Below are positions 1,178 through 26,452 of a DNA stretch of 29,033 nt, piece after piece. The DNA lies in IMG/VR virus record IMGVR_UViG_3300030117_002508, positions 1 through 29,033 of that record. One strand, given 5' to 3'. Position 1 is the first letter of the stretch. The number at the start of each line of letters is the position of its first letter. The notes under the pieces are model-generated. The model saw only the letters and a program-made list of their open reading frames with translations. It had not been told where the DNA came from and did not search any database. A program made the position numbers and the translations under genes. The stretch is from a virus.

Positions 1178-1396
1178 TTAATTTATTATTTTAAAGTCAA
1201 CGTCGATTTTACTATAATCAACCTTATCATAGTTATCACCATGTATTACCGCGTGTTTTGGAACTTCATCCGCTATAACGCCTTGGTAAGTGTCACTATC
1301 TTTCAAGTACCAATCTTTATATTTAAACGTATATATATTTAATCCACTTGGTGATTTACCAACTAGCTTTATATCACGTTTCATTTTTCTATCAGA
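1178..1396 (-). other. Peptidase S74 / intramolecular chaperone domain
   Basis: This codes for residues 434-505 of the 505-aa protein. The block opens with SDRKMKRDIK after a small-residue run (GAAIGA), carries a GL-x-IY-x-F-x-Y core and ends with a G-VIADEVP segment followed by VDYSKID. That order is typical of chaperone domains on phage tail spikes and fibres. The predicted cut is between Ala433 and Ser434 and would release about 8 kDa. Confidence 0.85.
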
Positions 1397-2695
1397 AGCA
1401 CCAATAGCAGCTCCAGCTATAGTTCCCACCATATTACTTTTTCCAGCGGATCTTTGAGCTCTAGCATTCCTTTTAGCAGCATCAACACCTAGAGCACCAG
1501 ATAACAATGTTGTTACCCTATCCATTTCTAGACCCTGCGTGTATATGTCTCCCTCTGCATATAACTTTTGCAATTCCATATCAGCGCCTCTTTTAGCAAG
1601 ATCTAGTTGTAAATCAGTATCTAATGTTCTATCACTTGTAAATATATCTCTACCAGCGATTTGCTCGTCCATTCTACCAGTCCAGTCTCTACTCCTATCA
1701 TCTAATCTAGCAGCTTCTCCAGCTTTTAACGTGTCTAATCTAGCGGTTTCACCTCTTTGCATTGCATCTATTTGACCAGCATAAGATGCTTCTGCCATGT
1801 TAATACTTTGCTGCGCTTGTGCCTTGGCCATGTTAATTTGTAGTGCCGCGTTCTTTTTATTAGCTTGTAATCTTTCTGCTCCAGCTCTTTCTTGCCTATC
1901 TATATCACCAAGCTCTTGTCTTTGCATTGTGTCTATTTTAGCAGCTTCAGTGGCCTCAAGCTGATCTAGTCTAGATTCTTCACCAGCTACTAGTGTTTCA
2001 AGTCTAGATTGTTCACCTCTTTGCATTGTTTCAATTCTAGCTTCTTCTTGCGCTCTCATTCTATCATTATCAGCTTCTTGTCTAGCAATTTCAACAGAAG
2101 ATTGTCTAGCGTCTTGAGAAGCTTGATTTGCCAACGTTTGTGCTAAACCAGATATACCACTACCACCAGCAGCGCCAGATAATGCAGACATTATATCTGC
2201 TCTTGATTGTGCTTGTTTTTGAGCCGCAAACTCCTGTGCTTCTGTTGATACTCCTAGTTCTTCAAAAGCATTTTCCATACCAGCATATTGATTTTTTAAA
2301 TTTACATACTGATTATCTAAATCTTCAAATTGGTTTTCCATGCCAGCAAACTGAGCTTTCATTCCAGCCCACTTATTTTGTGCTCCAGCCCATGGATTAC
2401 TTACGCTGGCAAAAGCATTTGAAACCCCACTATAAACATTACCCATACCTTCATAAGCATTACTAAGATTTTCAAACTGATTAGTTTGTCCAGTATATGG
2501 ATTTTTTATATCTTTATAAGGATTAATTGAGGAACCGTAGGGATTTGCAGTACCCTCAAGAGTATTTGTTACGCTTTCATATGGATTTTTACTAAAATCC
2601 ATATTCATAAACATATCCTCGTACTTTTTTATAGACTCTGGATTTTGCAAACTAGATGTAGGTGGTTTAGGAGGTCTAGGTTTCTTTCTTCCCAT
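1178..2695 (-). CDS. Fibre-like virion protein with two repeat arrays and C-terminal S74 intramolecular chaperone
   Basis: This 505-aa protein has four parts. A basic proline-rich N-terminus (residues 1-18) is followed by sixteen perfect 7-residue repeats (37-148, N-x-aromatic). A glycine/alanine linker leads to a helical region with twelve uninterrupted 11-residue repeats (220-351). The last 72 residues (434-505) match the Peptidase_S74 / endosialidase intramolecular chaperone family: SDRKMKRDI, then GLNIYTFKYKDW, then YQGVIADEVP. In that family the domain trimerises a fibre and then cuts itself off just before the Ser, using a Ser-Lys dyad. Here Ser434 follows Ala433, and Lys437 and Lys439 are the candidate partners. 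The protein is therefore probably a trimeric tail fibre or needle. The repeats could instead mark an internal virion protein. Start chosen at the only early ATG, 7 bases after the preceding stop. Confidence 0.85.
   Translation of the reverse strand: MGRKKPRPPKPPTSSLQNPESIKKYEDMFMNMDFSKNPYESVTNTLEGTANPYGSSINPYKDIKNPYTGQTNQFENLSNAYEGMGNVYSGVSNAFASVSNPWAGAQNKWAGMKAQFAGMENQFEDLDNQYVNLKNQYAGMENAFEELGVSTEAQEFAAQKQAQSRADIMSALSGAAGGSGISGLAQTLANQASQDARQSSVEIARQEADNDRMRAQEEARIETMQRGEQSRLETLVAGEESRLDQLEATEAAKIDTMQRQELGDIDRQERAGAERLQANKKNAALQINMAKAQAQQSINMAEASYAGQIDAMQRGETARLDTLKAGEAARLDDRSRDWTGRMDEQIAGRDIFTSDRTLDTDLQLDLAKRGADMELQKLYAEGDIYTQGLEMDRVTTLLSGALGVDAAKRNARAQRSAGKSNMVGTIAGAAIGASDRKMKRDIKLVGKSPSGLNIYTFKYKDWYLKDSDTYQGVIADEVPKHAVIHGDNYDKVDYSKIDVDFKIIN
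1643..2038 (-). repeat. Twelve-copy 11-residue (hendecad) protein repeat
   Basis: Residues 220-351 of the 505-aa protein divide without gaps into 11-residue units, such as RIETMQRGEQS, RLETLVAGEES, RLDQLEATEAA, KIDTMQRQELG, QIDAMQRGETA and RLDTLKAGEAA. The most regular positions are a first residue that is often Arg, Lys or Gln, Ile/Leu at the second and Asp/Glu (Asn in some units) at the third. An 11-residue period is the signature of nearly straight or slightly right-handed coiled coils. Confidence 0.85.
2252..2587 (-). repeat. Sixteen-copy 7-residue protein repeat (N-x-aromatic)
   Basis: Residues 37-148 of the 505-aa protein form sixteen contiguous 7-residue units. Asn is at position 1 (Ala only at residue 114), Tyr/Phe/Trp at position 3 (Leu only in unit 2), and usually Leu/Val/Met/Ile at position 6. 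Examples are NPYESVT, NQFENLS, NAYEGMG, NVYSGVS, NKWAGMK, NQYVNLK and NAFEELG. The unit sequences vary, so this is an old, selected protein repeat rather than a recent DNA duplication. The Asn plus aromatic pattern is unlike a classical leucine heptad coiled coil. Confidence 0.85.
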
Positions 2696-2702
2696 TTTAA
2701 TA

Positions 2703-3146
2703 TTATTTTTTGTTAGTCATGTCTTCGTGTATTTTTTGATGTATGTATATTACATAATACTTATCATCTAAAACATCGTGTCCAATTTTTTCTGCCATGT
2801 TTGCTATGGTTTCGTAAGATGTCATACCCCATATCATCGTACAGCCTCTACTTAAAAGATATTTACCACAAGCTTCTTGTAAATCCCAAAGCATATTATT
2901 TTTATCTTTTTCGTTATAATCGGGGTCTCTTACTAGATAATCCAAATAACCTATAGCGGAGTTTGTTAAATACATAAAGGCAGCCATAATTGGCTTCCCG
3001 TTTTTTTCCACAACATATCCATCCATACCATAGTTAGGTAATAGATCAACAGTTGGTACTTCACAGTGGTCATAGTGTTTCCACCATTTTATTAAATGCG
3101 CAAAATCGTCGGATTTAATAAACCGAATTTTATATTCTTTTTCCAT
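2703..3146 (-). CDS. GNAT-fold acetyltransferase-like protein
   Basis: A 147-aa protein whose order of elements suggests the GNAT fold. The N-terminal part (IRFIKSDDFAHLIKWW) is followed by helices, then a strand pair (GYVVEKNGKPIMAAFMYL, about 43-60), a strand 4-like segment (AIGYLDYLVRDP, 64-75), a helix (83-99), a strand (GCTMIWGMTS, 101-110) and an AEKIGHDV segment (118-125) like the common N-x-x-x-x-x-x-GF helix end. The usual acetyl-CoA pyrophosphate loop (Q/R-x-x-G-x-G/A) is replaced by DYNEKDKNN, so activity is uncertain. The gene sits among tail genes, so it might modify a virion or host surface component. It has a 49-base upstream leader without a Shine-Dalgarno sequence. Confidence 0.6.
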   Translation of the reverse strand: MEKEYKIRFIKSDDFAHLIKWWKHYDHCEVPTVDLLPNYGMDGYVVEKNGKPIMAAFMYLTNSAIGYLDYLVRDPDYNEKDKNNMLWDLQEACGKYLLSRGCTMIWGMTSYETIANMAEKIGHDVLDDKYYVIYIHQKIHEDMTNKK

Positions 3147-3180
3147 ATTATTTAATTTGATTTAATTGTACTTATATAGT

Positions 3181-3195
3181 CACACTTTTTGTGTG
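3181..3195 (-). other. Small A-loop hairpin after the 145-aa gene
   Basis: CACAC and GTGTG flank a five-base loop directly after the TAA of the 145-aa gene. The 5-bp stem has no T-run behind it on the minus strand, so it is at best a weak terminator or an RNA processing site. It lies in one of the few real intergenic gaps (3147-3195). I see no convincing promoter in the rest of that gap. Confidence 0.3.
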
Positions 3196-3633
3196 TTATT
3201 TACTACTCATTGTTACCTCAGAGCCAACCGAGAACAGTTTTGAGCCACTAGATGAGTCAGTTTTCATTTCGACTTCAGCAAAATAACCTTTAACACCACC
3301 TGTGTTTACCATATTTTCTTTACCAAAAAATATAAAATCTGAAGCATCTGGTGTTTGTGCGGTTTCATCTGCTTCAACCTCAACTAAATATTGGCTTGAA
3401 GAAACAGTTATACTATCAGCACCATTACTATACGTACCGGCATCTGTTTGTATACCCGTACATTTACCTAATCTATAAATATCTCCAGATTGCTTTCCAT
3501 TAACTATTCTAGTAAAATATATTATATCCCAAGCTCCAGTATCCATATTTGATGTATTAGAAGCTGAAGACAAAGACTTTGCTTGAAGCGATGTATTTAC
3601 TGGTTTTGTTAAAACTAATTTTACTGTTGCCAT
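3196..3633 (-). CDS. Conserved small virion structural protein
   Basis: A 145-aa beta-rich protein with Ser/Thr/Gly-rich loops and no cysteine cluster, membrane segment or signal peptide. The last third (KGYFAEVEMKTDSSSGSKLF, then SVGSEVTMSSK) resembles the C-terminus of small structural proteins common in marine phages, in which a Gly-Tyr-aromatic-x-x-V strand precedes an ELF-like segment and a final SSK. This match is from memory of family patterns and not verified. The gene starts one base after the TAA of the 357-aa gene (TAACATGG), so the two are probably translated together. Likely a tail or head decoration component; its exact place is unknown. Confidence 0.65.
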   Translation of the reverse strand: MATVKLVLTKPVNTSLQAKSLSSASNTSNMDTGAWDIIYFTRIVNGKQSGDIYRLGKCTGIQTDAGTYSNGADSITVSSSQYLVEVEADETAQTPDASDFIFFGKENMVNTGGVKGYFAEVEMKTDSSSGSKLFSVGSEVTMSSK

Positions 3634-4709: not shown

Positions 4710-7700
4710 TTATTGATCTATTGCTAATTTAGCGTTTCCGCTTACATTTATATAAGATTCTACATTTTCATTTGGAAATAAATTTCCAGCGTTATAATCT
4801 ATAGCTATTGTTATTTTAACAACATTACCATAGTAGCCAGGCGAATTTGTACCCGTTCCTATATTTGTAGTAGAGCTTATAGTTACTTCTGGATTAGAAG
4901 ATGTTACCACAAAATCATTACTAGTAACAGCATACTTTATACCATTTACTGTTTGACTATGTATGTATAAGTATTCGTAAGTAACACCCGTGCTAACACC
5001 AACTTTTTTATTATTTTTTATCTGCGCGTTAGTTGATGATCTATCTGTAGACGACGTGTTAACGGTGTAAGTAATTTGATCTGTTTTAGATGTAATATTT
5101 ACACATCGAATGTTTTTAATTGTTCCAGATGAACCAGCTTGTTTAGCAAAATGTATACCATCAACACCTCCACCAAATGCATTAGTTGAAGGATCATACT
5201 TATTATTATCATAAACAAAGGTTGTAGATATTTTGCCATTAGCTTGTAATGTTAACTTACTAGCATCAACATCAGTCATGTTTGCGGCGCTAAAACCAGC
5301 AGACGTATTGCTACCAGAAAAGTTTTCTATTTCAGCCTCTATATAATATTTGTTTCCAGGTAATAAATTACTAATAACACCAGTTACATAGTAAAAACTA
5401 GGATCTAAAACTGAACCACTATCTGTATGAGATTCCCAATCGATTCTAGTAGAATTTCTAACTTCTATTTTAGTAGTTGAATCAACAACGTCTTCAACGT
5501 AAGTTGTCGCAGCTGGATAACTCCAATTATAAGTATTAGCAAGAGTAGTTGCATCTTTATAAAATAATCCACTTTTTGCACCTATACAATTAACTTTCGG
5601 AATTGAATCTGCTATTATTGGTGTTATTAAAAGTGTTTTATAATTATCATGACTACCAGCGCTAACAGAGCTAACAAAACCTAAACCTTGTGATGTAAAG
5701 CTTTCAGGTAATATAGTTTCTTCACTAACTTCTTGCCCTGATATATTACTAAACCATTTACCTTCTTTTTCTTCAAAATCAACAACTTTAGCAGATTCTA
5801 AATCTGTTTCTATATAGTTAGCATACCAACCTTTAGTTGTTAATTGATTTTCTTCTCCCACTGTTTTTTCATAAGCCCTAGAAGATGTACCTTCATAATT
5901 TAAAGTATTAAAGTTTTTAATACTATCAGGTTGAGCATTAAATACTAACTTAACAGAGCTTTCATATTGTCTACCGTAAAAATTATTTCTTAACGCATTG
6001 GAATGATGTTTCCATATATCACCATTACTCCAAGTAAAATAATCACCATTTATTGATAAACCAGATTCAGGTAAAAATGATTTAAAACTTGTCCAACCTG
6101 TTACTGCTTCTGAAAAACTAACAGTAATATCTTCTAGTGTTAAGTTATATAAATCTCTATTTTCATCATAACTACCAATCATAGTATTAGAGTTTGGTAG
6201 TTTGTATTTGAAATAACTAATCATATCATGTTCAGATATAGCTGTCAAACCATCATGTGATAATCTTAGTACAGCACCTCTATCTCTATCTGTAAAATAT
6301 ATTCTATATCCAAAGTTTGCAAATGACTCTGGATTTCTAGATATACCGTATTCACCTTCAAATGGTATAGCTTGACCAAGCACTTTGTGGGAAGCTGTTA
6401 TTTGCATGCTGCCATCAGCGTTAAATAAAGCATCTTTATCAACTAATACTTTTAATATTTTATCTTCACATAACGCTACAACGTTAGTATTTCTAGTAAA
6501 TAATTTTTGAATACTACCATAATCTGGATTTAAATCTTTAGTTATACTTTCTGCTTGTATAAATTGATTTAATTGATTAACTCCACTTGTAGAATTATAT
6601 ATTCCAGAGAATATCAATCCACTACCTCTTGTTTCTTCTTTATAACTTTCTTCTAATGTTGTAGACACTCTTGGTCCTTTGTCTATCATTACGGCGTTAA
6701 AATCATCTCTTAATCTATCTGATTCTACACCGTTACCAAAAGAGAAGCAATTGTGCCATTTGATTTTTTCAGGTGGCAATGTTATTACAACGTCCCCACC
6801 AACAGGAACCGCTGATGGTAAAATATAATCTTTATAATAATCAGTTTCACCAGCTGAATCTATTTGAGAAATTCTTATTGTTATACCTGCCGGTAAATCT
6901 TCACCAACTGAGTATTGGGCAAAAATAGGAGAATCTGTCCATAAGTTATTGTCTATCTTGATCTTGTTAGGATTGTCACACCAGTCATATTGCTTTCCTG
7001 TTTTAATTTTTATAACAGGAGAAGTTTCATCTATAGCGTAAGTTTTAAGTGAAACACTTTTTAATACTATTTCTTTTGCATACGCCTCTGTTGGATCATC
7101 TAATATTATAGAGATTTTAACCTGATTGTTACTAGCACCAGCAACAGAACTATCATGTGTAAATTGAAAAACTTGAAGACCCTGTGTTAAAGCTGGTGTT
7201 GACCCTGATAATGGGTAGTAAGCTGTATATGCCGAACCATCCCAACCTCTAACCTGTAATAGTGTATCTGGTGGTGAACCTAAACTATTTATATCATTAT
7301 TAATACTTTCAACATCAACTGTTATTTGATACTGTTCTCCGTTTACAATATCGATAACATCACTAGTTAAAGATGGCGTAGCCCCAGAAGCTATTGTTTT
7401 GCTTAGTGTTACTTTTGTATTAGTCTCATCGTAAGTACTGGTAAAATCAGCGGCTGAATCCAAAGTCCAACCAGCAACACCACTACTAGCGGCGCTTGGA
7501 GAAACAAAAGCGCCATTATCATATAACTCTTCTCCTAAGATTTTTGCATATGGTAAAGCAGCGTTTCCACCTGGCTTATATATAGTACCAACATCTGCTA
7601 CAGAGTTGTAATTACTACCAGTGCCGGAGTTAAAGTCATTAGCATTAATATTGTTTAACGCTTGTATATACATACCATCTTTTAACACCAAAGATGTTTC

Positions 7701-10700
7701 AGCGCTTTCGTAATAAAGATTTAAGTCAACTCTTTCTTTTGGCTCAACTTCAAAAACAGCCGGATTAAAGCTAGATTCTGTTATTTCACTAGGTCTTTTT
7801 TCTATTATTTGTATTTGTGCTGTGGTACCTTCGTTGGCAGATGAAAATGGAACTAAAGTTGTGTGACTACTATCAGCGTTATAACCAAATCCAGCTGTAA
7901 TAGTAGCTGTAGGACTCCAAGCAATTCTTCTATCTAATTCTAAATCTATTCTATAACCAAATACAGATTTATCTTTTTTAAGAGTGTAGTAATTTTCATG
8001 GGCGCCTCCCTTACCGTAAAGCTCTCCTTCTGGTAGAGCTTTGTCAAAGTTATATATAGGTCTTTTTTGCATAACCTTTTTAACAGTATAAATTGTGTTA
8101 GACGGGTCGTCTGCCCATCTAAACTGCGTACCAACACGAGTTAATTCGCTTGCTAGCTTAAAGTTATCAAAAAACTCATTAGAAACAACAGCATCAGCCC
8201 CGTCAAACCATGTGTTTGTGTCTATTGGGCTTGTTTCTGGATCCGGTTCAGTGCTAGAAGCGCCAGTGCCACCTAAAGCATCATCATTACCTAGGTCAAC
8301 GTCTCCAATACCCGAGAAAGCAAAACTACAATAGTTATTACCCATAACAAAACCACTACCAATTCTATTATTTTCAGCATCTGTATCTTGACCTGTATAC
8401 GCTGGTAAATCACTAGGCCAATTCCAAGTCATTGCTTGGTGTATACAAAATCTTTGCGGTATAGAGCCGTTTATTTCTTTACCCCAATCTGTAGCATGCA
8501 AGCCGTTCATATTACCCTCTCCTTTTGTAGCACCGTGAACAGTACCAGCCCAAGTACCAATATATGGGTTTGTTCTTTCGGTATTTTCTATTTCTACTTT
8601 ATCATTCATTAAAGGTGGAAATTTTTTAACAGCAGCACCATTATATATACCATCAAGTGGTATTTGACTCCAATCACCATTATCAGTAGTTAACCAATTA
8701 AAGTTATTTACTCTATCATATAACCAATTATCGGTATCTTGACCTCTGTCAGTATTAGTATTTTTACCGGCATCGTTTTCATATGCATGGGCCCAATATG
8801 TGTCTTCCGCGTTTACAACATTATAACCTTTGTCATCTAAGCTTTGTTTTGAACCTATATATCTATCAAATTCACTATCTTTAGCTATTTTAACAAAGAA
8901 TTTACCTTCAAAATTATTATCGTATTGATTTAACTCTTCTCTATAATATTCTAAAAATAACTTTCTATTAGCATCATAACTACCACCAACAAATGACGCG
9001 TCAAAACCTAACGCTTCTACTAAAGTAAACTCATAATAATCTTCTTTACCGGCGTAAGAATCACCAGTTCCAGCGTTGTTAACTCTAGATATATGTAGTA
9101 TTTCGTAGTAATTAGAAAATAAACTAGGTTTACCTGTTATTAATTGTCCTAATCTAATGTATCTACCAGTTTGATTGTCTAGACAAGCCTCTTGCAAAGC
9201 CGCGTTACCATGTACAACATCCCCACGCAATCTAAATGTTATTTTATCTTTTTGAGGATATCCAGCTGCAGAACCACCATAGCTAGCTTGAGAGGCAAAA
9301 TGCAGGCCACCACCGTCATCATTAAGTATTCTACCACCAACATTTTTCCTAGTCATTTTTATAAAATCAGGAGCACTACCTTTTTTTGATAAAATTTTAT
9401 ATTTTACAACTTTATCAGAGCTTACTGCTATATCAGAATTATGTTCCTTTTTTAATATTAAATAATCATCTTCTTGTATTTTATTAAAATCACTAGAAGG
9501 AAAAGATAGCCAAACGTGATTACTAGTTTCTGCTTGATAAAATCTATCTAAAGATATATTGTAATATGGAGCCGCAGAATCTTTTACAAAGTACTTGTAA
9601 TGAGTAACCCATTCTGGTGGGAAGTTATTTAATGTTGCTGTAAGCAAGTTTGATGTTGCTGAGTTATCTTGACCGATACTAACTAAAGCACTATCTACAG
9701 AAAATATAGGAGATTGACGACCAAACATGTCTAAATAAGATACTCCAACTTGATACTCTCTAATAGATTTTATAGATTTTAAAACCTCTTCGTTAGCAAT
9801 TATATTAGATGTTGATAAACTAGCAACAATATTTGGTTCGTCAGAAGGTGATATATCGTACTGTTGGGTATAGTTTCCAAATATAATTCTATTAGAAGAA
9901 ATTTCTTGTGCTATAGCTTTTCTTGGTAGATTATCATAAGGTCTTAATAATTGTTTACTCTCTACTAAAGCATGGAACTTTTCTTTTGTTATTTCTAATT
10001 TTTCAAAATTTTGAAGCTCTGCACCTTTTATAGTAGTAAAAGTATATATATTGGTACTATTAGATTCTTTATATAATATTTCAATTTCAGCAACACCGCT
10101 AGGCATAGGATCAAAATCATTTAATATAACTCTTCTAACAGTGTTTTCCATTGATAAGTTATACCCTTCTATAGCATTGTATTTATAATCTTCGTCTGGT
10201 AAAAAGGCTACCTCTGTAAAAGCAGATATTGCAGAGTACTCACCGTCATCATATTTCCATCTATACGCAAATCTAGGAAACACTCTTTTAAATAATGGCT
10301 CCTCATCAACAAGTTCACAATTCCAATACTTGTGTTCTGACACTGGTAATTGAGTTATGTTATTATCTATAGAGGTTATTTCTACGTCAAAAATCTTTCT
10401 ATCACTATTAGAACCACCGCCACCGTAATCTATATTAGTTATTGTTAAAGGATAAACATATATATCGTCAATATTACCAGAAAAACCAGGTCCAAATGCT
10501 ATTTCTAATTGATTTTTATCATGTGATTGTTGCCACTCTACATAGTGCGTTCCATTTGTTACGTCTAAATATATATGGCCATCATTTGAACTTGTTATAT
10601 TAAAACTACCTCCAGTAAAATTTAAACCACCTTGTGACACTGATTTTCCAACATTATCGTGATCAAATAGTTTTATATTACAATTAGGCGTACTATCTTG

Positions 10701-13700
10701 GTCTACGTAATTAGTATTTGAAATTGTATATTTCATTCTATAATAACTACCAGCTGTTAATTGAAAAGTACCACTTCCAGCGGTTATAGTGCCGTTTGGA
10801 TTAGCTGGATAAGCAATAATTTGAGTTGAATTACCAGTAACAATATCAGCACCTGAACCACCATCAAAACCCCAAGTTATTCTATTCGCGTCGTTGTTAG
10901 CCTTTAAACTTACATTATCTATAGTACCACTATCAAGTTGACGGGAAAGATCCCCATAAGTACGCGCTGTAAATCTTATTTCACCTTTATCACGCTGGTT
11001 AAATATATCACCAGCGTAAGGATTTAATCCATGCGCATGACCGTGATCAAATGTAAATACACCTGTTTGGGTTGCTGGTGTGGTAACATCGGTATCGCCA
11101 GTACTAGTATTAACGTTTTCATAATATAAACTATTAGAAATACTGAATCCCCAACCCGTTGCATCACCAGCTGCAGCGGCATCTCCACCACCAGGCCCAC
11201 TTACATACTGAGTATAATCAAAACTAAGTTTATATTCACCGTTTTTTTCAAAGAATAATCTAGGGTTGAATTCAGATGTTTGTTTAAAGTTTGGGTTTGC
11301 CCCAACAGCAGCGGAATATGTTAATGCAACATTATTATTGTCATATTTAGGATATCCCGCGTTTGTACCTACAACTTCTCTTACTGATACTATACCTATA
11401 GTACCGTCGAAAGCAGAGTCGTTATTTAGTACTATTTTGTTTTCATTTGTTGTTCCTTGTACCCAAGTAAATTCATAAGAAGCAACAGCTGTTCCAGGTA
11501 AAGGTACGTCACTAGCTAGAGCACCAGCATCAGTAGCACCAATTAGTGATAAAGAACCACCAGTACTAGCAACTGTTATATCATAAGATATCCTATATGT
11601 TTTTCCATCTATAACACCTGGCATATCAAGTTCTAAATTACCATTGTCACCACCTTGACCTGCTTGCGCGCTTAATCCATCTGCTGAAAAAATCCATTGA
11701 GTACCAGAACCACCAGTTAAACTAATACCAGCTAATACACCAGTACCTTTCTTTTTTATACTTATATTGTAAAGTTGAGCTCTAACGAATCTATATGCAT
11801 CCACTCTAAACCCTAAATTATATGGGTCGTCTGAAGAATCAAAAGTAAAAGTAGTACTTAATGACACAACGTCAGAAGCGGCCGGGACTGCGGTAGAACT
11901 ATCGTACTGACTAGTACCAGTTAAAACCACAGCATCGCCTAAACCATTTGCATCTCTTTGCCCTTGACTTGTTTCATTTGTAACTCTCCCTTGCCCGTCT
12001 TTTATTCCCATGTTGTTCCAGAATCCAAACCAAGAGGAGGGTGAATCAGCGTAATAAAAATCTGATGAAAAAACGTCGTAACTAAGTATGTACTCATCTC
12101 CATCAACCATATTCGCAAGATCAGCCGCTGGAACCAAATCATAGTAACCATCATAATGAGTAGTACCAGTCCAAACATTTACCACGTCATAACCACTCCC
12201 GTGTATAGATGCGTCGTATCCAGCGTCACTTATGTTACCATAATAGGACCCGGAAGGGTGACCAGTGTTTGACATATAATTAGCAACATTATCTCCAAAA
12301 TACTGCGCTTGACTCGTGTCTACAAGGTTTGGACCATCTAAAACTTGATATGAAGCGTTAGGGTTTAACTCCACCCCAATACCTAAACCACCCGCTGCTG
12401 GGTTAAATTGCCAGTTGTCACCGTTACCAGTAAAAGTACCGTTTGCAACCATTTCTAAACTAGTAGTCCAGTCAGCAGTGTTAGTACTCGTACTGTTTAA
12501 AGCCGTGTTGCCACCCGCAAAAGTTAAATTACCAAGAGCCTGTACGTTTGCTATATAAGTTGCATTATTTAACATAATATCAGGGTCTAGTACCATATTA
12601 TTGCCTTGGACAATACCATCGCTCCAAGAACTAGGGGCTTCTATTCTATTACCATCAGCGTTTACAAAATAACTGTTAGCAGTTCTTCCCCATATTTTAT
12701 GCTTAAGAGAATCTATTTGTACTTCGTCTTTTAATTTTACAGTTACAGTAACATCGTCACCATTAGGTGCTTTGTTGGAATTTGTTAGTTTAACTAAGTC
12801 ACCAGTTTCATAATCTGGTTTAGGTGAAAATACAAGTGGTTGAATTGTTAAAGGCGCTGCTGATAAATCTACAACTTGAATATTCGATATTTCAACAGCA
12901 ACACCATTTCTTTTGGCAATAGCTAAACCTAACCCAGTTCCATCTTCCTCTTTTCCAATTCTGTCGTAATAATTAATTTCGTAAGTTTGTCCTATAGTTG
13001 GATTTTTTGGTATTAATTGCTTCCAAGCGGTTAAATCAATAGAGGTTCTTGGGTCCCAAGGGTGTACATATAAACCATGTTGATCAACAGAAGATAAGTC
13101 ACTCAACACCTTGACTTTCATTTTTATATTATAAAATCTACCACCAACTAATCCTTGGGCAAAATTATGAAGCAACTGCTTTCCATCAAATCCACCAACT
13201 GCCGTGGCATCAGCCGGGCCTTTGTAGCTTATGTTTGTAGTATGTCCACCTGTATGTGGCACGTCTTCAGTTGAGGTAAACGCGTTACCTATGTATTTAT
13301 TATTTTCTACCGTCCAACCTGGACCAAAATCATTTAAAGCGTTTGTAAATTTTTGTGTTGGTGTATCTATAAGAGCAAAATCCCCGGTATCATCATCTAG
13401 TAAAACGTTTCCATTAACATTTCTAGCTACTTCATCAGAAGAAACACCCGGTGGTTTTGGTAATAAAACACCAGAACCATCTCTATATGTCCAAAAAGAA
13501 TTATTATTATACACATTCATGTAAGCAAAAACGACTCTTTGACCTTGTTTCCAAAAGTTATTGTTATCAGCCTCGTCTAGATTTGAAGCGATTGGGTTTA
13601 AATATACCCTACCACCTATAATATCTTTAAATAAAACAGCGTTTCTAATAGCTGTTGCAGTCCCGTTTTCATCTATACACCAAATAGTGTCAGCCGTAAG

Positions 13701-15704
13701 TGGAGACATGCTAGCCCAAGTTTGCCAAGCTTTTTCATAATAATTCTCTTGTCTTGTAAAGTCGTTATCGTAATTTAAAGGGGCAAACAAATCTTCTTTG
13801 GGAGAAAGAGGGTCACTTTCTTCTACAAATAATGGATAGTTTACAAATTGACCCTCTGAAGTAGAATCTAAAGAACTCCAATCGGGACCAACATCTAATT
13901 GCATTATAACATCTTCACCTAACGCGTTTTCTCCAATATAATTTTTACGTATTACAGAATCTCTTCTTAGATACATGTGTACGAAGTTGTTATATCTTAA
14001 TTGATCACCACTTCCATCTAAAAAAGAACCAGGGTTGGTTGATATGTTATTAGTAGCTTGACCCGGTACAAATTGATCAATAGTATTTACCGCTTTAGTT
14101 GTATTTGTAGGCGTTGTACAACTTGTTTTTATTACAGATCCCGCTGGTTTTGTTGTGTTGATAAGCTCCATACTAGGAGCGTTTAAAGGATATTTTTTTA
14201 TTAAAGTTATATCTTCTTCTTTTATGTTTCTAGTATAAAGTCCTGAAGCGTTTTTTACTTTTGTGGTTCTATTCCAATCAAATGCTATTTCTTTAATAGA
14301 TACAATTGCGATTTGTAACCCAGTGTTAATATCAGTGCTACTAGTGTTATGTATATACACTTGCGACGCTGTTTCGTTGGCGTCTGTATTAGCAATAGAA
14401 TTTTCGTTTGTAACACCAGTTGTTAAATTTCCTATAAAACCAGTGCTATTACTTGGTATAATACCTTGCCTTAACTCTGTTGTACCGCCAAGTTCATCAA
14501 CTAGTACTATATTTAATTCCCCAGATGTAAAAACGCCTAAAATGTCTATTTCTATTTGATATGTTTTTCCTCTTTCTATTGAAACATTGGCTTGAGAAAA
14601 CTTTTTATATTGACCAACAGGTGATATTGATTCCATATAACTACCGGTGGGACCAGTAGTGATATCCCACTCTGGATCAGAAGTCCAGTTGGCATCGCTA
14701 GTAAACTCTGAATTTAAAATAAGTTCTGGTCCTGTAAAACTAGTAGCGTTAAAATTAACAATACCTTCTGAGCCAGCCTTACATCTTTCTACGTTTATTT
14801 TTTTAGGTTCTGTTTTTCCATCCGTCCAAATCAACATTCCATCTAAAATATTTATAGCTGTTATATGATTTGTAGAATGAAAATTTAAAAATCTATCAAC
14901 TTGTTTTACTTTAACGTTTTTTATAGTAAACGTGTTTGCCGAGTTAAGAGTACAATCTTGAAATAATAACAAATAATCAGTGTCATCACCTTGTATCCAT
15001 TCTATTTTTTTAACCCCAGATGTGCTTATGTCTAAAGTAATATCACCATTGTTTTTACCATGCTTTGATAATGTTAACTTAGAATTATCAACATCATTAG
15101 CTTGTAAAACACTTACTTCATATTCTATTTCGTATTTATACCCTTCTACAAGTTTTATTTCGTCTCTAAATAAATACAAATAACCAGCTCTACCCCATAT
15201 AGGCGCAGCGCTAAAAGATGTTAAGTCCCAACTAATACCTTCTACGGTGTCTAAGTTGGGACTACTATTTTGCCACACTAAACCATTGGAAATATCTTCT
15301 AAATCTATAACGTTTAAAAGAGAACTATTTGGATTTACATCAACAGAGCTAAACGTGTGCACATACGTTTCTTTCATTCCAAAATCTACAAGAACTGGAA
15401 CCGCTGATCTTAGTTTAGCATCGTATTCTACGATAGCATCTGTACTATCACCTTTTATAAACCAATATAATTTATCTGTTTCTTTATTAACTAAAGAACC
15501 TATACACTTAGCACCTGGTATAACTTTAGATAAATTAGAATGAGCCGTATTACCCCATGAGTTTTGAAGAGAGCCAACGTCGTCCCCTTGCGAAGTAGAA
15601 ACCTCGACATTTAAAGCGTCTCGCATCTGATTGTTGGGAAGTAATCTTTCATCAAGATCTTTGTTCATCTTACCTCCCATGAAGGTATTTTTAATTTCAG
15701 GCAT
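4710..15704 (-). CDS. Giant 3664-aa modular tail protein (tail stabilisation/hub family)
   Basis: The N-terminus (GGKMNKDLDERLLPNNQMRD, then ALNVEV) matches large tail stabilisation/hub proteins of crAss-like and marine podovirus-like phages, as remembered. Other segments of that family follow: FPRFAYRWKYDDGEYSA near residue 1810, YDNLPRKAIAQEI near 1923, WHNCFSFGNGVESDR near 2982 and GEYGISRNPESF near 3116. The last lies in a region with beta-propeller-like repeats. Between and after these lie about nine beta-sandwich modules of 120-240 aa that resemble carbohydrate-binding domains, each with a G-x-x-Y strand and most closing with an F-x-G-x-I-x-x-(V/I)-like strand. No signal peptide, coiled coil or hydrolase motif is evident. 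The likely job is a tail assembly that binds host surface glycan. The start is 4 bases after the preceding stop. The frame stays open for 11 kb, so the gene is intact. Confidence 0.85.
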   Translation of the reverse strand: MPEIKNTFMGGKMNKDLDERLLPNNQMRDALNVEVSTSQGDDVGSLQNSWGNTAHSNLSKVIPGAKCIGSLVNKETDKLYWFIKGDSTDAIVEYDAKLRSAVPVLVDFGMKETYVHTFSSVDVNPNSSLLNVIDLEDISNGLVWQNSSPNLDTVEGISWDLTSFSAAPIWGRAGYLYLFRDEIKLVEGYKYEIEYEVSVLQANDVDNSKLTLSKHGKNNGDITLDISTSGVKKIEWIQGDDTDYLLLFQDCTLNSANTFTIKNVKVKQVDRFLNFHSTNHITAINILDGMLIWTDGKTEPKKINVERCKAGSEGIVNFNATSFTGPELILNSEFTSDANWTSDPEWDITTGPTGSYMESISPVGQYKKFSQANVSIERGKTYQIEIDILGVFTSGELNIVLVDELGGTTELRQGIIPSNSTGFIGNLTTGVTNENSIANTDANETASQVYIHNTSSTDINTGLQIAIVSIKEIAFDWNRTTKVKNASGLYTRNIKEEDITLIKKYPLNAPSMELINTTKPAGSVIKTSCTTPTNTTKAVNTIDQFVPGQATNNISTNPGSFLDGSGDQLRYNNFVHMYLRRDSVIRKNYIGENALGEDVIMQLDVGPDWSSLDSTSEGQFVNYPLFVEESDPLSPKEDLFAPLNYDNDFTRQENYYEKAWQTWASMSPLTADTIWCIDENGTATAIRNAVLFKDIIGGRVYLNPIASNLDEADNNNFWKQGQRVVFAYMNVYNNNSFWTYRDGSGVLLPKPPGVSSDEVARNVNGNVLLDDDTGDFALIDTPTQKFTNALNDFGPGWTVENNKYIGNAFTSTEDVPHTGGHTTNISYKGPADATAVGGFDGKQLLHNFAQGLVGGRFYNIKMKVKVLSDLSSVDQHGLYVHPWDPRTSIDLTAWKQLIPKNPTIGQTYEINYYDRIGKEEDGTGLGLAIAKRNGVAVEISNIQVVDLSAAPLTIQPLVFSPKPDYETGDLVKLTNSNKAPNGDDVTVTVKLKDEVQIDSLKHKIWGRTANSYFVNADGNRIEAPSSWSDGIVQGNNMVLDPDIMLNNATYIANVQALGNLTFAGGNTALNSTSTNTADWTTSLEMVANGTFTGNGDNWQFNPAAGGLGIGVELNPNASYQVLDGPNLVDTSQAQYFGDNVANYMSNTGHPSGSYYGNISDAGYDASIHGSGYDVVNVWTGTTHYDGYYDLVPAADLANMVDGDEYILSYDVFSSDFYYADSPSSWFGFWNNMGIKDGQGRVTNETSQGQRDANGLGDAVVLTGTSQYDSSTAVPAASDVVSLSTTFTFDSSDDPYNLGFRVDAYRFVRAQLYNISIKKKGTGVLAGISLTGGSGTQWIFSADGLSAQAGQGGDNGNLELDMPGVIDGKTYRISYDITVASTGGSLSLIGATDAGALASDVPLPGTAVASYEFTWVQGTTNENKIVLNNDSAFDGTIGIVSVREVVGTNAGYPKYDNNNVALTYSAAVGANPNFKQTSEFNPRLFFEKNGEYKLSFDYTQYVSGPGGGDAAAAGDATGWGFSISNSLYYENVNTSTGDTDVTTPATQTGVFTFDHGHAHGLNPYAGDIFNQRDKGEIRFTARTYGDLSRQLDSGTIDNVSLKANNDANRITWGFDGGSGADIVTGNSTQIIAYPANPNGTITAGSGTFQLTAGSYYRMKYTISNTNYVDQDSTPNCNIKLFDHDNVGKSVSQGGLNFTGGSFNITSSNDGHIYLDVTNGTHYVEWQQSHDKNQLEIAFGPGFSGNIDDIYVYPLTITNIDYGGGGSNSDRKIFDVEITSIDNNITQLPVSEHKYWNCELVDEEPLFKRVFPRFAYRWKYDDGEYSAISAFTEVAFLPDEDYKYNAIEGYNLSMENTVRRVILNDFDPMPSGVAEIEILYKESNSTNIYTFTTIKGAELQNFEKLEITKEKFHALVESKQLLRPYDNLPRKAIAQEISSNRIIFGNYTQQYDISPSDEPNIVASLSTSNIIANEEVLKSIKSIREYQVGVSYLDMFGRQSPIFSVDSALVSIGQDNSATSNLLTATLNNFPPEWVTHYKYFVKDSAAPYYNISLDRFYQAETSNHVWLSFPSSDFNKIQEDDYLILKKEHNSDIAVSSDKVVKYKILSKKGSAPDFIKMTRKNVGGRILNDDGGGLHFASQASYGGSAAGYPQKDKITFRLRGDVVHGNAALQEACLDNQTGRYIRLGQLITGKPSLFSNYYEILHISRVNNAGTGDSYAGKEDYYEFTLVEALGFDASFVGGSYDANRKLFLEYYREELNQYDNNFEGKFFVKIAKDSEFDRYIGSKQSLDDKGYNVVNAEDTYWAHAYENDAGKNTNTDRGQDTDNWLYDRVNNFNWLTTDNGDWSQIPLDGIYNGAAVKKFPPLMNDKVEIENTERTNPYIGTWAGTVHGATKGEGNMNGLHATDWGKEINGSIPQRFCIHQAMTWNWPSDLPAYTGQDTDAENNRIGSGFVMGNNYCSFAFSGIGDVDLGNDDALGGTGASSTEPDPETSPIDTNTWFDGADAVVSNEFFDNFKLASELTRVGTQFRWADDPSNTIYTVKKVMQKRPIYNFDKALPEGELYGKGGAHENYYTLKKDKSVFGYRIDLELDRRIAWSPTATITAGFGYNADSSHTTLVPFSSANEGTTAQIQIIEKRPSEITESSFNPAVFEVEPKERVDLNLYYESAETSLVLKDGMYIQALNNINANDFNSGTGSNYNSVADVGTIYKPGGNAALPYAKILGEELYDNGAFVSPSAASSGVAGWTLDSAADFTSTYDETNTKVTLSKTIASGATPSLTSDVIDIVNGEQYQITVDVESINNDINSLGSPPDTLLQVRGWDGSAYTAYYPLSGSTPALTQGLQVFQFTHDSSVAGASNNQVKISIILDDPTEAYAKEIVLKSVSLKTYAIDETSPVIKIKTGKQYDWCDNPNKIKIDNNLWTDSPIFAQYSVGEDLPAGITIRISQIDSAGETDYYKDYILPSAVPVGGDVVITLPPEKIKWHNCFSFGNGVESDRLRDDFNAVMIDKGPRVSTTLEESYKEETRGSGLIFSGIYNSTSGVNQLNQFIQAESITKDLNPDYGSIQKLFTRNTNVVALCEDKILKVLVDKDALFNADGSMQITASHKVLGQAIPFEGEYGISRNPESFANFGYRIYFTDRDRGAVLRLSHDGLTAISEHDMISYFKYKLPNSNTMIGSYDENRDLYNLTLEDITVSFSEAVTGWTSFKSFLPESGLSINGDYFTWSNGDIWKHHSNALRNNFYGRQYESSVKLVFNAQPDSIKNFNTLNYEGTSSRAYEKTVGEENQLTTKGWYANYIETDLESAKVVDFEEKEGKWFSNISGQEVSEETILPESFTSQGLGFVSSVSAGSHDNYKTLLITPIIADSIPKVNCIGAKSGLFYKDATTLANTYNWSYPAATTYVEDVVDSTTKIEVRNSTRIDWESHTDSGSVLDPSFYYVTGVISNLLPGNKYYIEAEIENFSGSNTSAGFSAANMTDVDASKLTLQANGKISTTFVYDNNKYDPSTNAFGGGVDGIHFAKQAGSSGTIKNIRCVNITSKTDQITYTVNTSSTDRSSTNAQIKNNKKVGVSTGVTYEYLYIHSQTVNGIKYAVTSNDFVVTSSNPEVTISSTTNIGTGTNSPGYYGNVVKITIAIDYNAGNLFPNENVESYINVSGNAKLAIDQ
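5050..5600 (-). other. C-terminal beta-sandwich module 9 of the giant tail protein
   Basis: This module has a GNKYYIEAEIEN strand near residue 3449 and ends GTIKNIRCVNI. Length and strand order match the other modules. It lies downstream of all conserved hub segments, so it is the most exposed candidate for surface binding. Confidence 0.5.
7035..7545 (-). other. Beta-sandwich module 8 inserted between hub segments
   Basis: It begins ELYDNGAFVSPS, shows SGVAGWTLDS, has the GEQYQITVDVES strand near residue 2788 and closes AKEIVLKSVSLKT. The opening (label, N-G-x-F, later a W) is the usual start of CBM4/9-like modules. It sits between the hub segments near residues 1923 and 2982. Confidence 0.55.
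10435..12470 (-). other. Four consecutive beta-sandwich modules (4-7) of the giant tail protein
   Basis: Modules start near 12470, 11740, 11360 and 10895. The key strands are GDEYILSYDVFS, GKTYRISYDITV, NGEYKLSFDYTQ and GSYYRMKYTISN. The closing strands are AQLYNISIKKK, FDGTIGIVSVREV, LDSGTIDNVSLKAN and FSGNIDDIYVYPL. The block ends just before the hub segment with FPRFAYRWKYDDGEY. Pairwise identity by eye is low, so the copies are old or were acquired separately. Confidence 0.6.
12863..13360 (-). other. Beta-sandwich module 3 of the giant tail protein
   Basis: It begins FTNALNDFGPGWTVENNKY, has the GRFYNIKMKVKV strand near residue 853 and ends VEISNIQVVDLS. A His/Asp-bearing loop (HPWDPRTSIDLTAW) is not seen in the other modules. 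Confidence 0.5.
14275..15325 (-). other. Beta-sandwich modules 1 and 2 of the giant tail protein
   Basis: Module 1 (about 14885-15325) has GYKYEIEYEVSV and ends FTIKNVKVKQV. Module 2 (about 14275-14735) starts ELILNSEFTSDANW, has GKTYQIEIDILG and ends LQIAIVSIKEI. They are separated by a short hub-like segment (HSTNHITAINILDGMLIWTD). This shows the modules are spliced into the hub protein rather than added only at its end. Confidence 0.55.
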
Positions 15705-15708
15705 TTAA

Positions 15709-16578
15709 TTAGTGTTTTATATATTTAGATATTCCTCTTAATGTCTGTGTTATTTCTTCTAATTTAATATTCGATAGTCTCAACTTAGCTTTTCTAGTTT
15801 CAACCATTTTATCTCTTTTAAATCTCATTATAATATTGTCCGGTACACCAACTCTAGTAGATGCAATAGCATACGCTATGTGTTTATACATAGCTTCTTC
15901 TGCAAACTTGTGAACTTTCATTTCAGAATCAGTTCCTAGACTATCACTTATATATTTTAATATCACAGTTTTTCCCGAAATATTAGAACTAAAATGTATT
16001 TTTCCTGTGTTTTCGTCAATATAAAAAGAACCATTGGTTTGAGAATGCGCTGCATCAAGACCGTATCTTTGTCCTAACGCGGAAACATAATAATCATCAT
16101 CGTAAGATTCTTTGTTTTCTGACGGTGTATTATCTTTGTAATTTTCCCAAGTTGTTGAAGATGTATCTGTATTCAAATTATCACCAGTAAAAGTATAATC
16201 ACCGTTAGCATCTTGTGTTACATCTGTTGGATTAGATGTTTTAGAAGCTGGATATAATATGTGCTCTATTCCGTTAGAACCAGACCAAGCTAATTTAACA
16301 TAGTTAACATAATCTTGTGGTAATAACATTGTTAATGTGGCCGGTACTTCTATTTCTTGAGATTTTACCGATTTAAAAGTATCAAATGATAATTCTTGTA
16401 AAGCACGCATAGCGTGAAACTGAACAGTAGAAACTTTTACTTTTGGTATTATATTATCCTCTCCTGTATAGGCAAATATAAAATTATTAATAATATCATC
16501 TAAAGATATAAATTGATAACCTCCAAAGCTACTTCCTGAGTAATAAGCATTTTGCGTTTGATCGTCTAATAATCCCAT
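15709..16578 (-). CDS. Neck / head-tail connector (ring) protein
   Basis: A 289-aa protein. Its N-terminal third (SLDDIINNFIFAYTGEDNII, then KVKVSTVQFHAMRALQELSFDTFKSV... region around residues 46-72, then EIEVPATLTMLLPQDYVNYV) matches, from memory, connector proteins widespread in marine podovirus-like and crAss-like phages. The middle (about 110-190) is Asp/Thr/Asn-rich and loop-like. The C-terminal part is helical and basic (MRFKRDKMVETRKAKLRLSN). It lies between the other neck gene and the giant tail protein, where tail-tube or ring proteins are encoded. The role would be to join the portal ring to the tail hub. No catalytic motif is seen. The exact ring position is not resolvable from sequence. 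Confidence 0.7.
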   Translation of the reverse strand: MGLLDDQTQNAYYSGSSFGGYQFISLDDIINNFIFAYTGEDNIIPKVKVSTVQFHAMRALQELSFDTFKSVKSQEIEVPATLTMLLPQDYVNYVKLAWSGSNGIEHILYPASKTSNPTDVTQDANGDYTFTGDNLNTDTSSTTWENYKDNTPSENKESYDDDYYVSALGQRYGLDAAHSQTNGSFYIDENTGKIHFSSNISGKTVILKYISDSLGTDSEMKVHKFAEEAMYKHIAYAIASTRVGVPDNIIMRFKRDKMVETRKAKLRLSNIKLEEITQTLRGISKYIKH

Positions 16579-16585
16579 ATTTTAT

Positions 16586-17290
16586 TTATTTAGTTTGTGC
16601 TTCTTTTTGTAATGCCACTTGTAGTAGTTGTGGATCTTTTATTGTTACTCCAGCTAAAGTTAATATTTTAACCACCAAAGTATTTTCTTCTGACTCGTGT
16701 AATTGAAAGTCGACAGACGATGCGCTATTATAAAGTGCAGCTCCATTTATTTCTGTGTAGTTCCAAGAAACTTCAGGTGGTCTAGATACAAAGTGACAGT
16801 TTAGTGTAGATGTAGAATAAGCCGGAGATACCGAGCTTGGATAAAGCACTATCTGCGTAGCGTTTTTTCTAGTGTAAACAGGATGTTTAACGGAGGGTTT
16901 AGCAAGTGGTACTTGGTTGATAAATTCTATTTCACCCGTATCAACTTGTTCTACTTTAATACTTTTTGTGGAGTCGTTATAAAAAACAGTTCCTAATCTA
17001 TATACGTTAGTAGGTAGCGTTGCTGTTTGTCCAGAAACCGCCGACATATCTTGATGTAGATTTTCAAATGGAGCTATTTTTTCTAATAATATTTTTTTAA
17101 CATCGTGATATTCTGAATCATTTTTTGTACCAAACTCAATAGCGCTTAGTTTAAAAAAGTAATCTTCAAATATATCAAATTGAACTTGGTTAGCAAATAA
17201 ATTAAATTCTTGAGGTGTAATATAACCTCTTTGCTCTTTGTTAGCTATTGCTAAAACTCTTTGGTATACTGTATCTATATTTATTGCCAT
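16586..17290 (-). CDS. Head-tail adaptor / neck protein
   Basis: A 234-aa protein. The N-terminal helical part (VYQRVLAIANKEQRGYITPQ, then EFNLFANQVQFDIFEDYFF) is a conserved hallmark of adaptor proteins following the capsid gene in many marine phages. A beta-rich middle follows (YRLGTVFYNDSTKSIKVEQV). The C-terminal part (FQLHESEENTLVVKILTLAG, then VTIKDPQLLQVA) is helical and likely contacts the portal. It is separated from the upstream 276-aa gene by a 56-base gap holding a UUCG hairpin, and it starts after a pure A/T leader with no Shine-Dalgarno sequence. The likely role is the first ring below the portal. The family match is from memory; function is inferred. Confidence 0.7.
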   Translation of the reverse strand: MAINIDTVYQRVLAIANKEQRGYITPQEFNLFANQVQFDIFEDYFFKLSAIEFGTKNDSEYHDVKKILLEKIAPFENLHQDMSAVSGQTATLPTNVYRLGTVFYNDSTKSIKVEQVDTGEIEFINQVPLAKPSVKHPVYTRKNATQIVLYPSSVSPAYSTSTLNCHFVSRPPEVSWNYTEINGAALYNSASSVDFQLHESEENTLVVKILTLAGVTIKDPQLLQVALQKEAQTK

Positions 17291-25639: not shown

Positions 25640-25917
25640 TACTTAGATCTGCCTTCTGCGAATCCTTTAAAAGCTTTTTTCTCTGTCTTTTCAGGTGTTT
25701 TTCCCTCAAGCAGGTTTTCTTCTTCTTGGATTCTGTTAAGTATTTCAAATGCGTCAAATATAGCTAGTTTTTTAGTAGCTGCTGCGTTTTTCAGTCTATC
25801 AGCTGACACGTCGTCTTCTGTATTAGTAATAATCTTTTCTTCTGCTACTTTGATTAATTCATCAACTGCTTTCCGCCCAGCTTGGATTATATTCTTCTTC
25901 GTCTCCTTGATACTCAT
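25639..25917 (-). CDS. Small helical protein, candidate terminase small subunit
   Basis: A 92-aa, all-helical, Lys/Glu-rich protein (KKNIIQAGRKAVDELIKVAE, then ADRLKNAAATKKLAIFDAFE). It sits directly before terL and overlaps it by one base (TAATG). Small terminase subunits are usually encoded here and bind the packaging site as oligomers. Against this, the protein is short, and no clear helix-turn-helix can be named. Its start overlaps the end of the 196-aa gene by 56 bases in another frame. No other Met lies in the frame, so the overlap is real unless a non-ATG start is used. Confidence 0.55.
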   Translation of the reverse strand: MSIKETKKNIIQAGRKAVDELIKVAEEKIITNTEDDVSADRLKNAAATKKLAIFDAFEILNRIQEEENLLEGKTPEKTEKKAFKGFAEGRSK

Positions 25918-26452
25918 ATTTAATTGTAATAAATTGTGTCATAACTCTATATAGACGTTCTTTGTCTATAATAAACTCATATTCGCTATTAGGTGTAAAA
26001 CCCACTAGTTCGCCTTTTTTAAAACTACCGTCAGAATGTTTTACAACACCAACCAAAGGCATTTCTGGATTATAACTTAATATACGCTTGTTCAAAAGTG
26101 GTTTAACAAAACAATAACCTTTTGGTGTTATCCACTCTTTATTTCTTTTGTATAAGAATATTTGATCGCTATTTACTAAATAAGTTGATTCATCAAAATA
26201 ACTTCTACTATTCTTCTCTTCAGCATTTACATTGTGCCACCGTCTAAAAACATTATGGTGCACTACAACTGTATCACCTGGTTTTATATCTGTATCACCA
26301 ATAATAGGGGTTGATATAACAATAGCTTCTCTATTAACATATTGATGGTTAAATATTTCAGTGTTAAGTATTAACTCCGAATCACCAACTTTTTTTTTAT
26401 TATTATATCTTTCTCCTTTTGGTGTTACAACAAAGTTGTAAACACTCTTCAT
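25862..26452 (-). CDS. Tandem GroES-like co-chaperonin candidate
   Basis: A 196-aa protein that reads as two GroES-like barrels. Barrel 1 (about 4-103) has VYNFVVTPKG, AIVISTPIIG, DIKPGDTVVVHH (55-66) and YLVNSDQIFLYK (91-102). Barrel 2 (about 107-180) has ITPKGYCFVKPL, LVGVVKHSDG, SFKKGELVGF (143-152) and ERLYRVMTQFITI. Both copy the GroES order of R/K-start strand, G-x-V loop, V-K-x-GD/E-x-V-x-F strand and the final Y/E-x-L-x-x-x-x-D-I-L strand. A hydrophobic tripeptide (LIL, 27-29) lies where the mobile loop would be. If correct, it would help chaperonin fold capsid protein, as T4 gp31 does. This is motif inference; an unrelated beta-barrel protein is possible. The stop is TGA. Confidence 0.5.
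   Translation of the reverse strand: MKSVYNFVVTPKGERYNNKKKVGDSELILNTEIFNHQYVNREAIVISTPIIGDTDIKPGDTVVVHHNVFRRWHNVNAEEKNSRSYFDESTYLVNSDQIFLYKRNKEWITPKGYCFVKPLLNKRILSYNPEMPLVGVVKHSDGSFKKGELVGFTPNSEYEFIIDKERLYRVMTQFITIKYEYQGDEEEYNPSWAESS

Follow-up and report, generated by a model that had tools for sequence, protein, structure and literature searches.

The stretch of DNA analysed here in full (the window; 29,033 nt, 29 kb), a single metagenomic virus record (IMGVR_UViG_3300030117_002508), was found to carry a gene for a 3664-aa muzzle protein of the crAss-like kind, named P0001, and our analyses support the presence in it of nine divergent copies (M1 to M9) of one beta-rich module family. We favour, with moderate confidence, the reading that these modules are CBM-like units set on the muzzle core at the tail tip, where they would grip the host surface polysaccharide, the loops that hold them acting as slots.

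The P0001 ORF occupies window positions 4710-15704 on the minus strand, with an ATG start and zero internal stops. As judged by sequence homology, P0001 is a muzzle (nozzle-type propeller) protein: residues 3239-3322 matched the Pfam family crAss_MUZ_C (E 1.7e-11; 44.8 bits against a cut-off of 27), the full-length protein matched phrog_14478 of PHROGs in five stretches (E 1.1e-127), and a profile of 84 muzzle homologues found crAss001 gp44 at residues 28-211 and 1127-1283, the middle of gp44 being left unaligned. An NCBIfam search with P0001 gave zero matches, and when the muzzle core was searched against PDB sequences, none matched at 0.01. The initial annotation had called the protein a tail hub; this identity was dropped, since the Pfam, PHROG and gp44 matches all denote a muzzle and the crAss001 naming reserves "tail hub" for other proteins (PMC10172136). 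The phage is probably a crAss-like, short-tailed one, with P0001 predicted to lie at the tail tip. In crAss001, the muzzle is a tail-tip hexamer with a ring-joining domain, a seven-bladed propeller, two Ig-like domains and a crass domain, and its distal domain is expected to touch the cell (PMC10172136). Among named records, the closest portal proteins were those of Manatee Spring phage, Maribacter phage Panino, and Flavobacterium, Cellulophaga and Tenacibaculum phages, and the gene order around the muzzle was alike in the three named records inspected, so that the host is probably an uncultured flavobacterium. Elsewhere on the minus strand, the gene at window 25862-26452, beside the terminase, matched phrog_13932 (co-chaperonin GroES); in relatives, GroES and GroEL lie at about this position. 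The 505-aa protein encoded at window 1178-2695, also on the minus strand, is perhaps a tail fibre, as its C-terminus weakly matched Peptidase_S74 (chaperone of endosialidase) at an E of 0.017, which is below the cut-off.

The layout of P0001, from its N-terminus, and of the adjacent gene is given below in window coordinates, (-) denoting the minus strand and L numbers related phages.

4710..15704 (-): muzzle protein gene P0001, 3664 aa, nine CBM-like modules; Pfam crAss_MUZ_C, phrog_14478
15375..15704 (-): core, N-terminus and first propeller strands, residues 1-110; 49% identical to the L003 muzzle over 1-107; pLDDT about 90 at 61-110
14901..15323 (-): M1, residues 128-268; GYKYEIEYEV at 188; reached by 0/500 shuffles; closest to the L052 neighbour-gene module (Z 9.2)
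14760..14891 (-): core, propeller strands between M1 and M2, residues 272-315; 34% identical to L002 over 234-329; pLDDT at least 90 for much of it
14277..14741 (-): M2, residues 322-476; AlphaFold pLDDT 55.7; nearest solved folds CBM4/16/22/86; L008 module at the same site
14145..14234 (-): core, residues 491-520; EEDITLIKKYPLNAPSMEL aligned with L003 TEDQITVIKKSPLSPPTITM
13353..14045 (-): insert without the CBM-like motif, residues 554-784; absent from most homologues; a 153-aa insert here in L081
12849..13361 (-): M3, residues 782-952; GRFYNIKMKV at 855; L081 module between similar flanks
11745..12467 (-): M4, residues 1080-1320; GDEYILSYDV at 1202; opening NGTF...W; E 1.2e-21 with a profile built with M4
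11358..11753 (-): M5, residues 1318-1449; GKTYRISYDI at 1367; 32% identical to the L052 neighbour-gene module (Z 19.2)
10893..11369 (-): M6, degenerate motif NGEYKLSFDY, residues 1446-1604; closing SGTIDNVSL; reached by 1/500 shuffles
10434..10898 (-): M7, residues 1603-1757; GSYYRMKYTI at 1652; closing FSGNIDDIYV
7665..10307 (-): core, residues 1800-2680; 33-34% identical to the L002 and L003 muzzles over 1774-2345
7035..7541 (-): M8, residues 2722-2890; GEQYQITVDV at 2789; reached by 0/500 shuffles; insert site used in 38/85 homologues
5655..6770 (-): core with crAss_MUZ_C (Pfam), residues 2979-3350; 49% identical to L002 and L003
5082..5573 (-): M9, C-terminal extension, residues 3378-3541; GNKYYIEAEI at 3450; extension of at least 60 aa in 43/85 homologues
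15709..16578 (-): neighbouring virion protein (phrog_13977, E 6e-49), 289 aa, no module here; homologues in L052, L057, L060, L065, L090, L092 and L094 hold one loop module

BLAST and multiple alignment delimited the conserved segments at about residues 1-110, 272-315, 491-520, 1800-2680 and 2979-3350, of which residues 1800-2680 would correspond to the Ig-like and crass domains. The nine modules account for 1487 of the roughly 2227 residues, out of 3664, that lie outside this core. The modules had been proposed to interrupt the conserved segments rather than follow them, and this was the case for M1 to M8, whereas M9 comes after the core. The segments split by M1 to M8 are contiguous in the relatives; in L003, for example, VLVD-VNNILNFSTFYLITGINI is unbroken at the position held by M1 in P0001. 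In an AlphaFold model of residues 1-520, pLDDT reached about 90 in the strands that border M1 and M2 but was low inside the modules, M1 being unfolded in this context (about 28). With 69-92 residues aligned, these bordering strands matched propeller blades at Z 6.6-7.8, for example those of Sf6 gp8 and of the tail proteins of Pa223 and SU10. A Foldseek search with the whole model gave no significant match. Only about 69-92 of residues 55-504 aligned to propeller blades, and thus M1 and M2 appeared to be looped out. The model supports an N-terminal beta-propeller, seen as a partial propeller only and at Z below 8.

The recurring strand on which the initial annotation was built proved to be real. 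The strict motif G-x-x-Y-x-[ILM]-x-x-x-[VI] occurred eight times in P0001 (residues 188, 379, 855, 1202, 1367, 1652, 2789 and 3450), as against a mean of 0.28 and a maximum of 3 in shuffled P0001 sequences (n = 2000), and the ninth copy, NGEYKLSFDY, was found where it had been placed (about residue 1487-1488) in a degenerate form outside the strict motif. Each of the other muzzle proteins in the 85-protein set held at most one strict motif. A closing strand of the form [IL]xx[VI]x[VILC] was present in all nine modules; the fuller F-x-G-x-I-x-x-[VI], previously ascribed to most copies, was overstated, because it occurred in only two of the nine. Of the opening signature, N-x-x-F was seen in M2, M4, M8 and loosely M6, and W in eight of the nine modules.

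When each module was searched with a profile of the other eight, M1, M5 and M8 were reached by none of 500 shuffles, M3, M4 and M6 by one to five (M6 by one), and the weak M2, M7 and M9 by 13-36, in a test that is not fully independent because the module boundaries were set around the motif. In a stronger test, a joint nine-module profile, run against 807 ORFs (related phages and the window) with reversed decoys, found the neighbour-gene inserts of L052 (E 6.4e-7) and L060 (E 2.7e-5), the best decoy standing at 0.027. These two inserts begin with NLITNGGFDSSTGW and NLLRNPEFHGGSASW, openings that are usual in CBM4/9-like modules; the L057 neighbour-gene insert matched CBM_4_9 at E 0.0018 and 19.1 bits, below the cut-off of 25.9. 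The modules were too divergent for single-module phmmer iterations, in which only M5 found others, and the nine-module profile matched PDB sequences at chance level only. No relative of the M3-M7 region was found in a viral-contig scan or by tblastn against 50,697 phage records. A genome-contig scan with the L052-type module, limited to short patterns, likewise returned no relative, and thus no bacterial donor was found by this short-pattern search.

Sibling modules are only about 12-25% identical, with several pairs at background, and the nine modules are found together in one contig only, as would be expected if the likeness were a chance one among beta-rich stretches or the contig were misassembled. 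We consider such an origin highly improbable, considering the eight strict motifs against 0.3 expected, the recovery of other phages' CBM-like modules by the joint profile, the single open frame of 3664 codons, and the occurrence of two modules with similar flanks in L081; modules so divergent, moreover, give an assembler no repeat to confuse. The grouping of M1 to M9 as divergent copies of one beta-rich module family is hence supported. Nor is the family private to P0001: by sequence, its members also occur in the neighbouring virion protein of relatives, and some other muzzles have one or two. As a separate observation, M3-M6 (window 10893-13361) showed a G+C of 0.37-0.41 versus 0.33 in the muzzle core, which Gly/Ala-rich sequence or recent acquisition could explain.

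As regards the fold, the AlphaFold model of M2, built with eight related rows, was beta-rich and of low confidence (pLDDT 55.7, pTM 0.51). Its nearest solved structures in Foldseek were the Bacteroides surface glycan-binding protein SGBP-B and CBM22 (E from 2.7e-3), followed lower down by CBM16, CBM86 and CBM4. With VIA-align, the best match was a mycobacteriophage Douge gp20 domain, a phage fibre domain (Z 10.5, rmsd 3.2, 143 residues aligned), closely followed by CBM4 1gui (Z 10.2, rmsd 2.9, 133 aligned), CBM86 (Z 10.1) and CBM22 (Z 10.0); when M2 was taken from the 520-residue model, which had no module rows, CBM22 and CBM15 were matched at Z of about 6. Its neighbours among predicted viral structures included tail fibre, minor tail and receptor-binding proteins as well as one named CBM-cenC. 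M2 thus resembles CBM_4_9 (PF02018) and CBM families 4, 16, 22 and 86 in predicted fold (Z of about 10 over 126-143 residues), and some P0001 copies share the N-x-x-F ... W opening of the CBM_4_9 type; in contrast to that type, none of the nine modules gave a Pfam CBM match above the curated cut-off. The proposal of CBM-like beta-sandwiches is therefore partly supported, through a low-confidence model for M2 and through the profile only for the other eight. The W and Y shared by the modules look structural.

Since the fold alone leaves the ligand unfixed and CBM-like sandwiches are also common in protein binding, the modules might instead bind a protein, lipid or metal of the host surface; weak Foldseek matches to domains other than CBMs, those of EphA2, reelin and laminin among them, would agree with this. 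We regard a non-glycan ligand as improbable, the better matches being dominated by CBMs and the Bacteroides surface glycan-binding protein, and sugar gripping, a putative role assigned from fold likeness, is probably the function of the modules.

To place P0001 among its relatives, we compared 85 muzzle proteins (P0001 and 84 homologues, a few truncated by contig ends or split genes), the homologue scan having listed at least 600 stretches. P0001 was the longest of the 85; the other 84 ranged from 946 to 3131 aa (median 1876). Inserts of at least 60 aa were found after residue ~110 in 28 of the 85, at 2674-2953 in 38 and at the C-terminus in 43, and were rare at 314-490 and 554-1769. A wider profile to which relatives had been added found, apart from the nine modules of P0001, two in the L081 muzzle, two in that of L090 and one each in those of L062 and L008, the two decoys listed having domain E values of 0.47 and 1.9. 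Module number, which the initial annotation had suggested comparing between homologues, thus does differ, with nine here and 0-2 in the relatives' muzzles. The same profile found one module in the neighbour gene of each of L052, L057, L060, L065, L090, L092 and L094. In the window, the gene following this neighbour (16586-17290) matched the crAss001 ring protein gp34 (E 1.9e-5); for the neighbour itself, next upstream of the muzzle, a ring protein name was rejected, as its profile matches no crAss001 ring protein.

The L008 module occupies the M2 site, and L081 has one module at the M3 site and another at the M4-M7 site. Occupants of the same site were dissimilar (M3 versus the first L081 module, Z -0.7; M2 versus L008, Z 1.9), whereas strong matches were seen across genes: the L052 neighbour-gene module was the best match of both M5 (Z 19.2) and M1 (Z 9.2), and one L090 muzzle module was closest to the L057 neighbour-gene module (Z 21.9). 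Exchange between genes and phages is hence likelier than tandem duplication alone, and the sibling pairs M2/M4 (Z 6.5) and M1/M7 (Z 5.8) may be old duplicates. That the same family is also found in a loop of the virion protein encoded next door would equally suit structural beta-sandwich spacers, which do not bind sugar but make the muzzle larger or more stable, or touch other tail proteins. Other large muzzles hold FN3 and TSP3 repeats, which are usual spacer domains, and the crAssphage BACON repeats, despite their name, are not proven sugar binders (PMC6949934). We nevertheless judge a purely structural role rather unlikely, for the solved folds closest to M2 belong mostly to sugar-binding modules, fibre, minor tail and receptor-binding proteins are among the predicted viral proteins most like it, and the great divergence among occupants of one slot fits recognition better than a fixed scaffold.

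It has already been published that muzzle length varies through insertions in the crass and IG2 domains (PMC10172136). crAss001 gp44 (1371 aa) resembles P0001, with homology at both ends and in the C-terminal part; P0001 adds the nine related CBM-like modules, some of them in the N-terminal propeller region and others inside a large insertion that precedes the FAYRWKY segment. The crAss-like muzzle insertions are known from length differences and were not assigned to a domain family in PMC10172136, whose text on the crAss001 muzzle names no such module family. The closest tested precedent in working principle is offered by the evolved Dit proteins of lactococcal siphophages, whose inserts aid adsorption to exopolysaccharide-producing hosts (PMC10688798; see also PMC9692632). 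There too, CBMs are inserted into the loops of a protein that forms a hexameric ring close to the tail tip, and their presence varies between related phages (PMC9692632; PMC10688798). In contrast, evolved Dit is another protein, of long-tailed phages with Gram-positive hosts, with one CBM insertion described as against nine in P0001, known from sequence. The Dit family (belt and galectin domains) was absent from the Pfam, PHROGs and NCBIfam matches of P0001, and the likeness is proposed as one of working principle only. The BACON arrays of crAssphage gp64 are alike in placing many beta-sandwich modules on a tail-associated crAss-like protein, some acquired by horizontal transfer and others by duplication (PMC6949934), but they are Ig-like, arranged in tandem and part of another protein, unlike the CBM-like modules in the muzzle loops of P0001.

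Under the sugar-gripping reading, a muzzle hexameric as in crAss001 would present some 54 modules around the tail tip. Protruding outward from the loops, these could make many weak sugar contacts that hold the virion on the host surface polysaccharide until the tip reaches its receptor and the muzzle is opened. The loops would serve as slots whose modules come, go and take each other's place, some of this turnover being due to exchange with other tail genes. We put forward only tentatively the more specific view that the muzzle is a slotted scaffold with a few fixed loops, into which exchangeable glycan-binding modules move between muzzle and neighbouring virion genes, so that nine different binders would give about 54 sites of mixed specificity and host range could be read from the slots. 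If the modules do bind sugars, the muzzle, besides the tail fibres, would help to decide which Bacteroidota the phage can hold; surface glycans of hosts could be predicted by comparing what the slots hold in hundreds of aquatic relatives; and short-tailed phages that infect Gram-negative hosts would have their own counterpart of evolved Dit.

The muzzle homologues also showed other variations. At the M1 site (e.g., in L045, L056, L083 and L086), 20 of 22 inserts of at least 80 aa share a G-M-x-V-like motif, such as IRPGMRVQAI or IREGMYITGT, indicative of another small domain, in place of which P0001 has the CBM-like M1. After the core, large muzzles carry fibronectin type III domains in L048 and weakly in L065, and bacterial TSP3 repeats in L087. 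The 3029-aa muzzle homologue at L023:9998-19084 has a HINT-type end at residues 2888-3027 (PT-HINT, E 1.8e-9; Hint, E 6.9e-8), possibly a self-processing end. In L006:28709-32622 (Maribacter phage Panino), L035 and L042, the muzzle is encoded by two consecutive ORFs, the second starting about 110 bases after the first in Panino.
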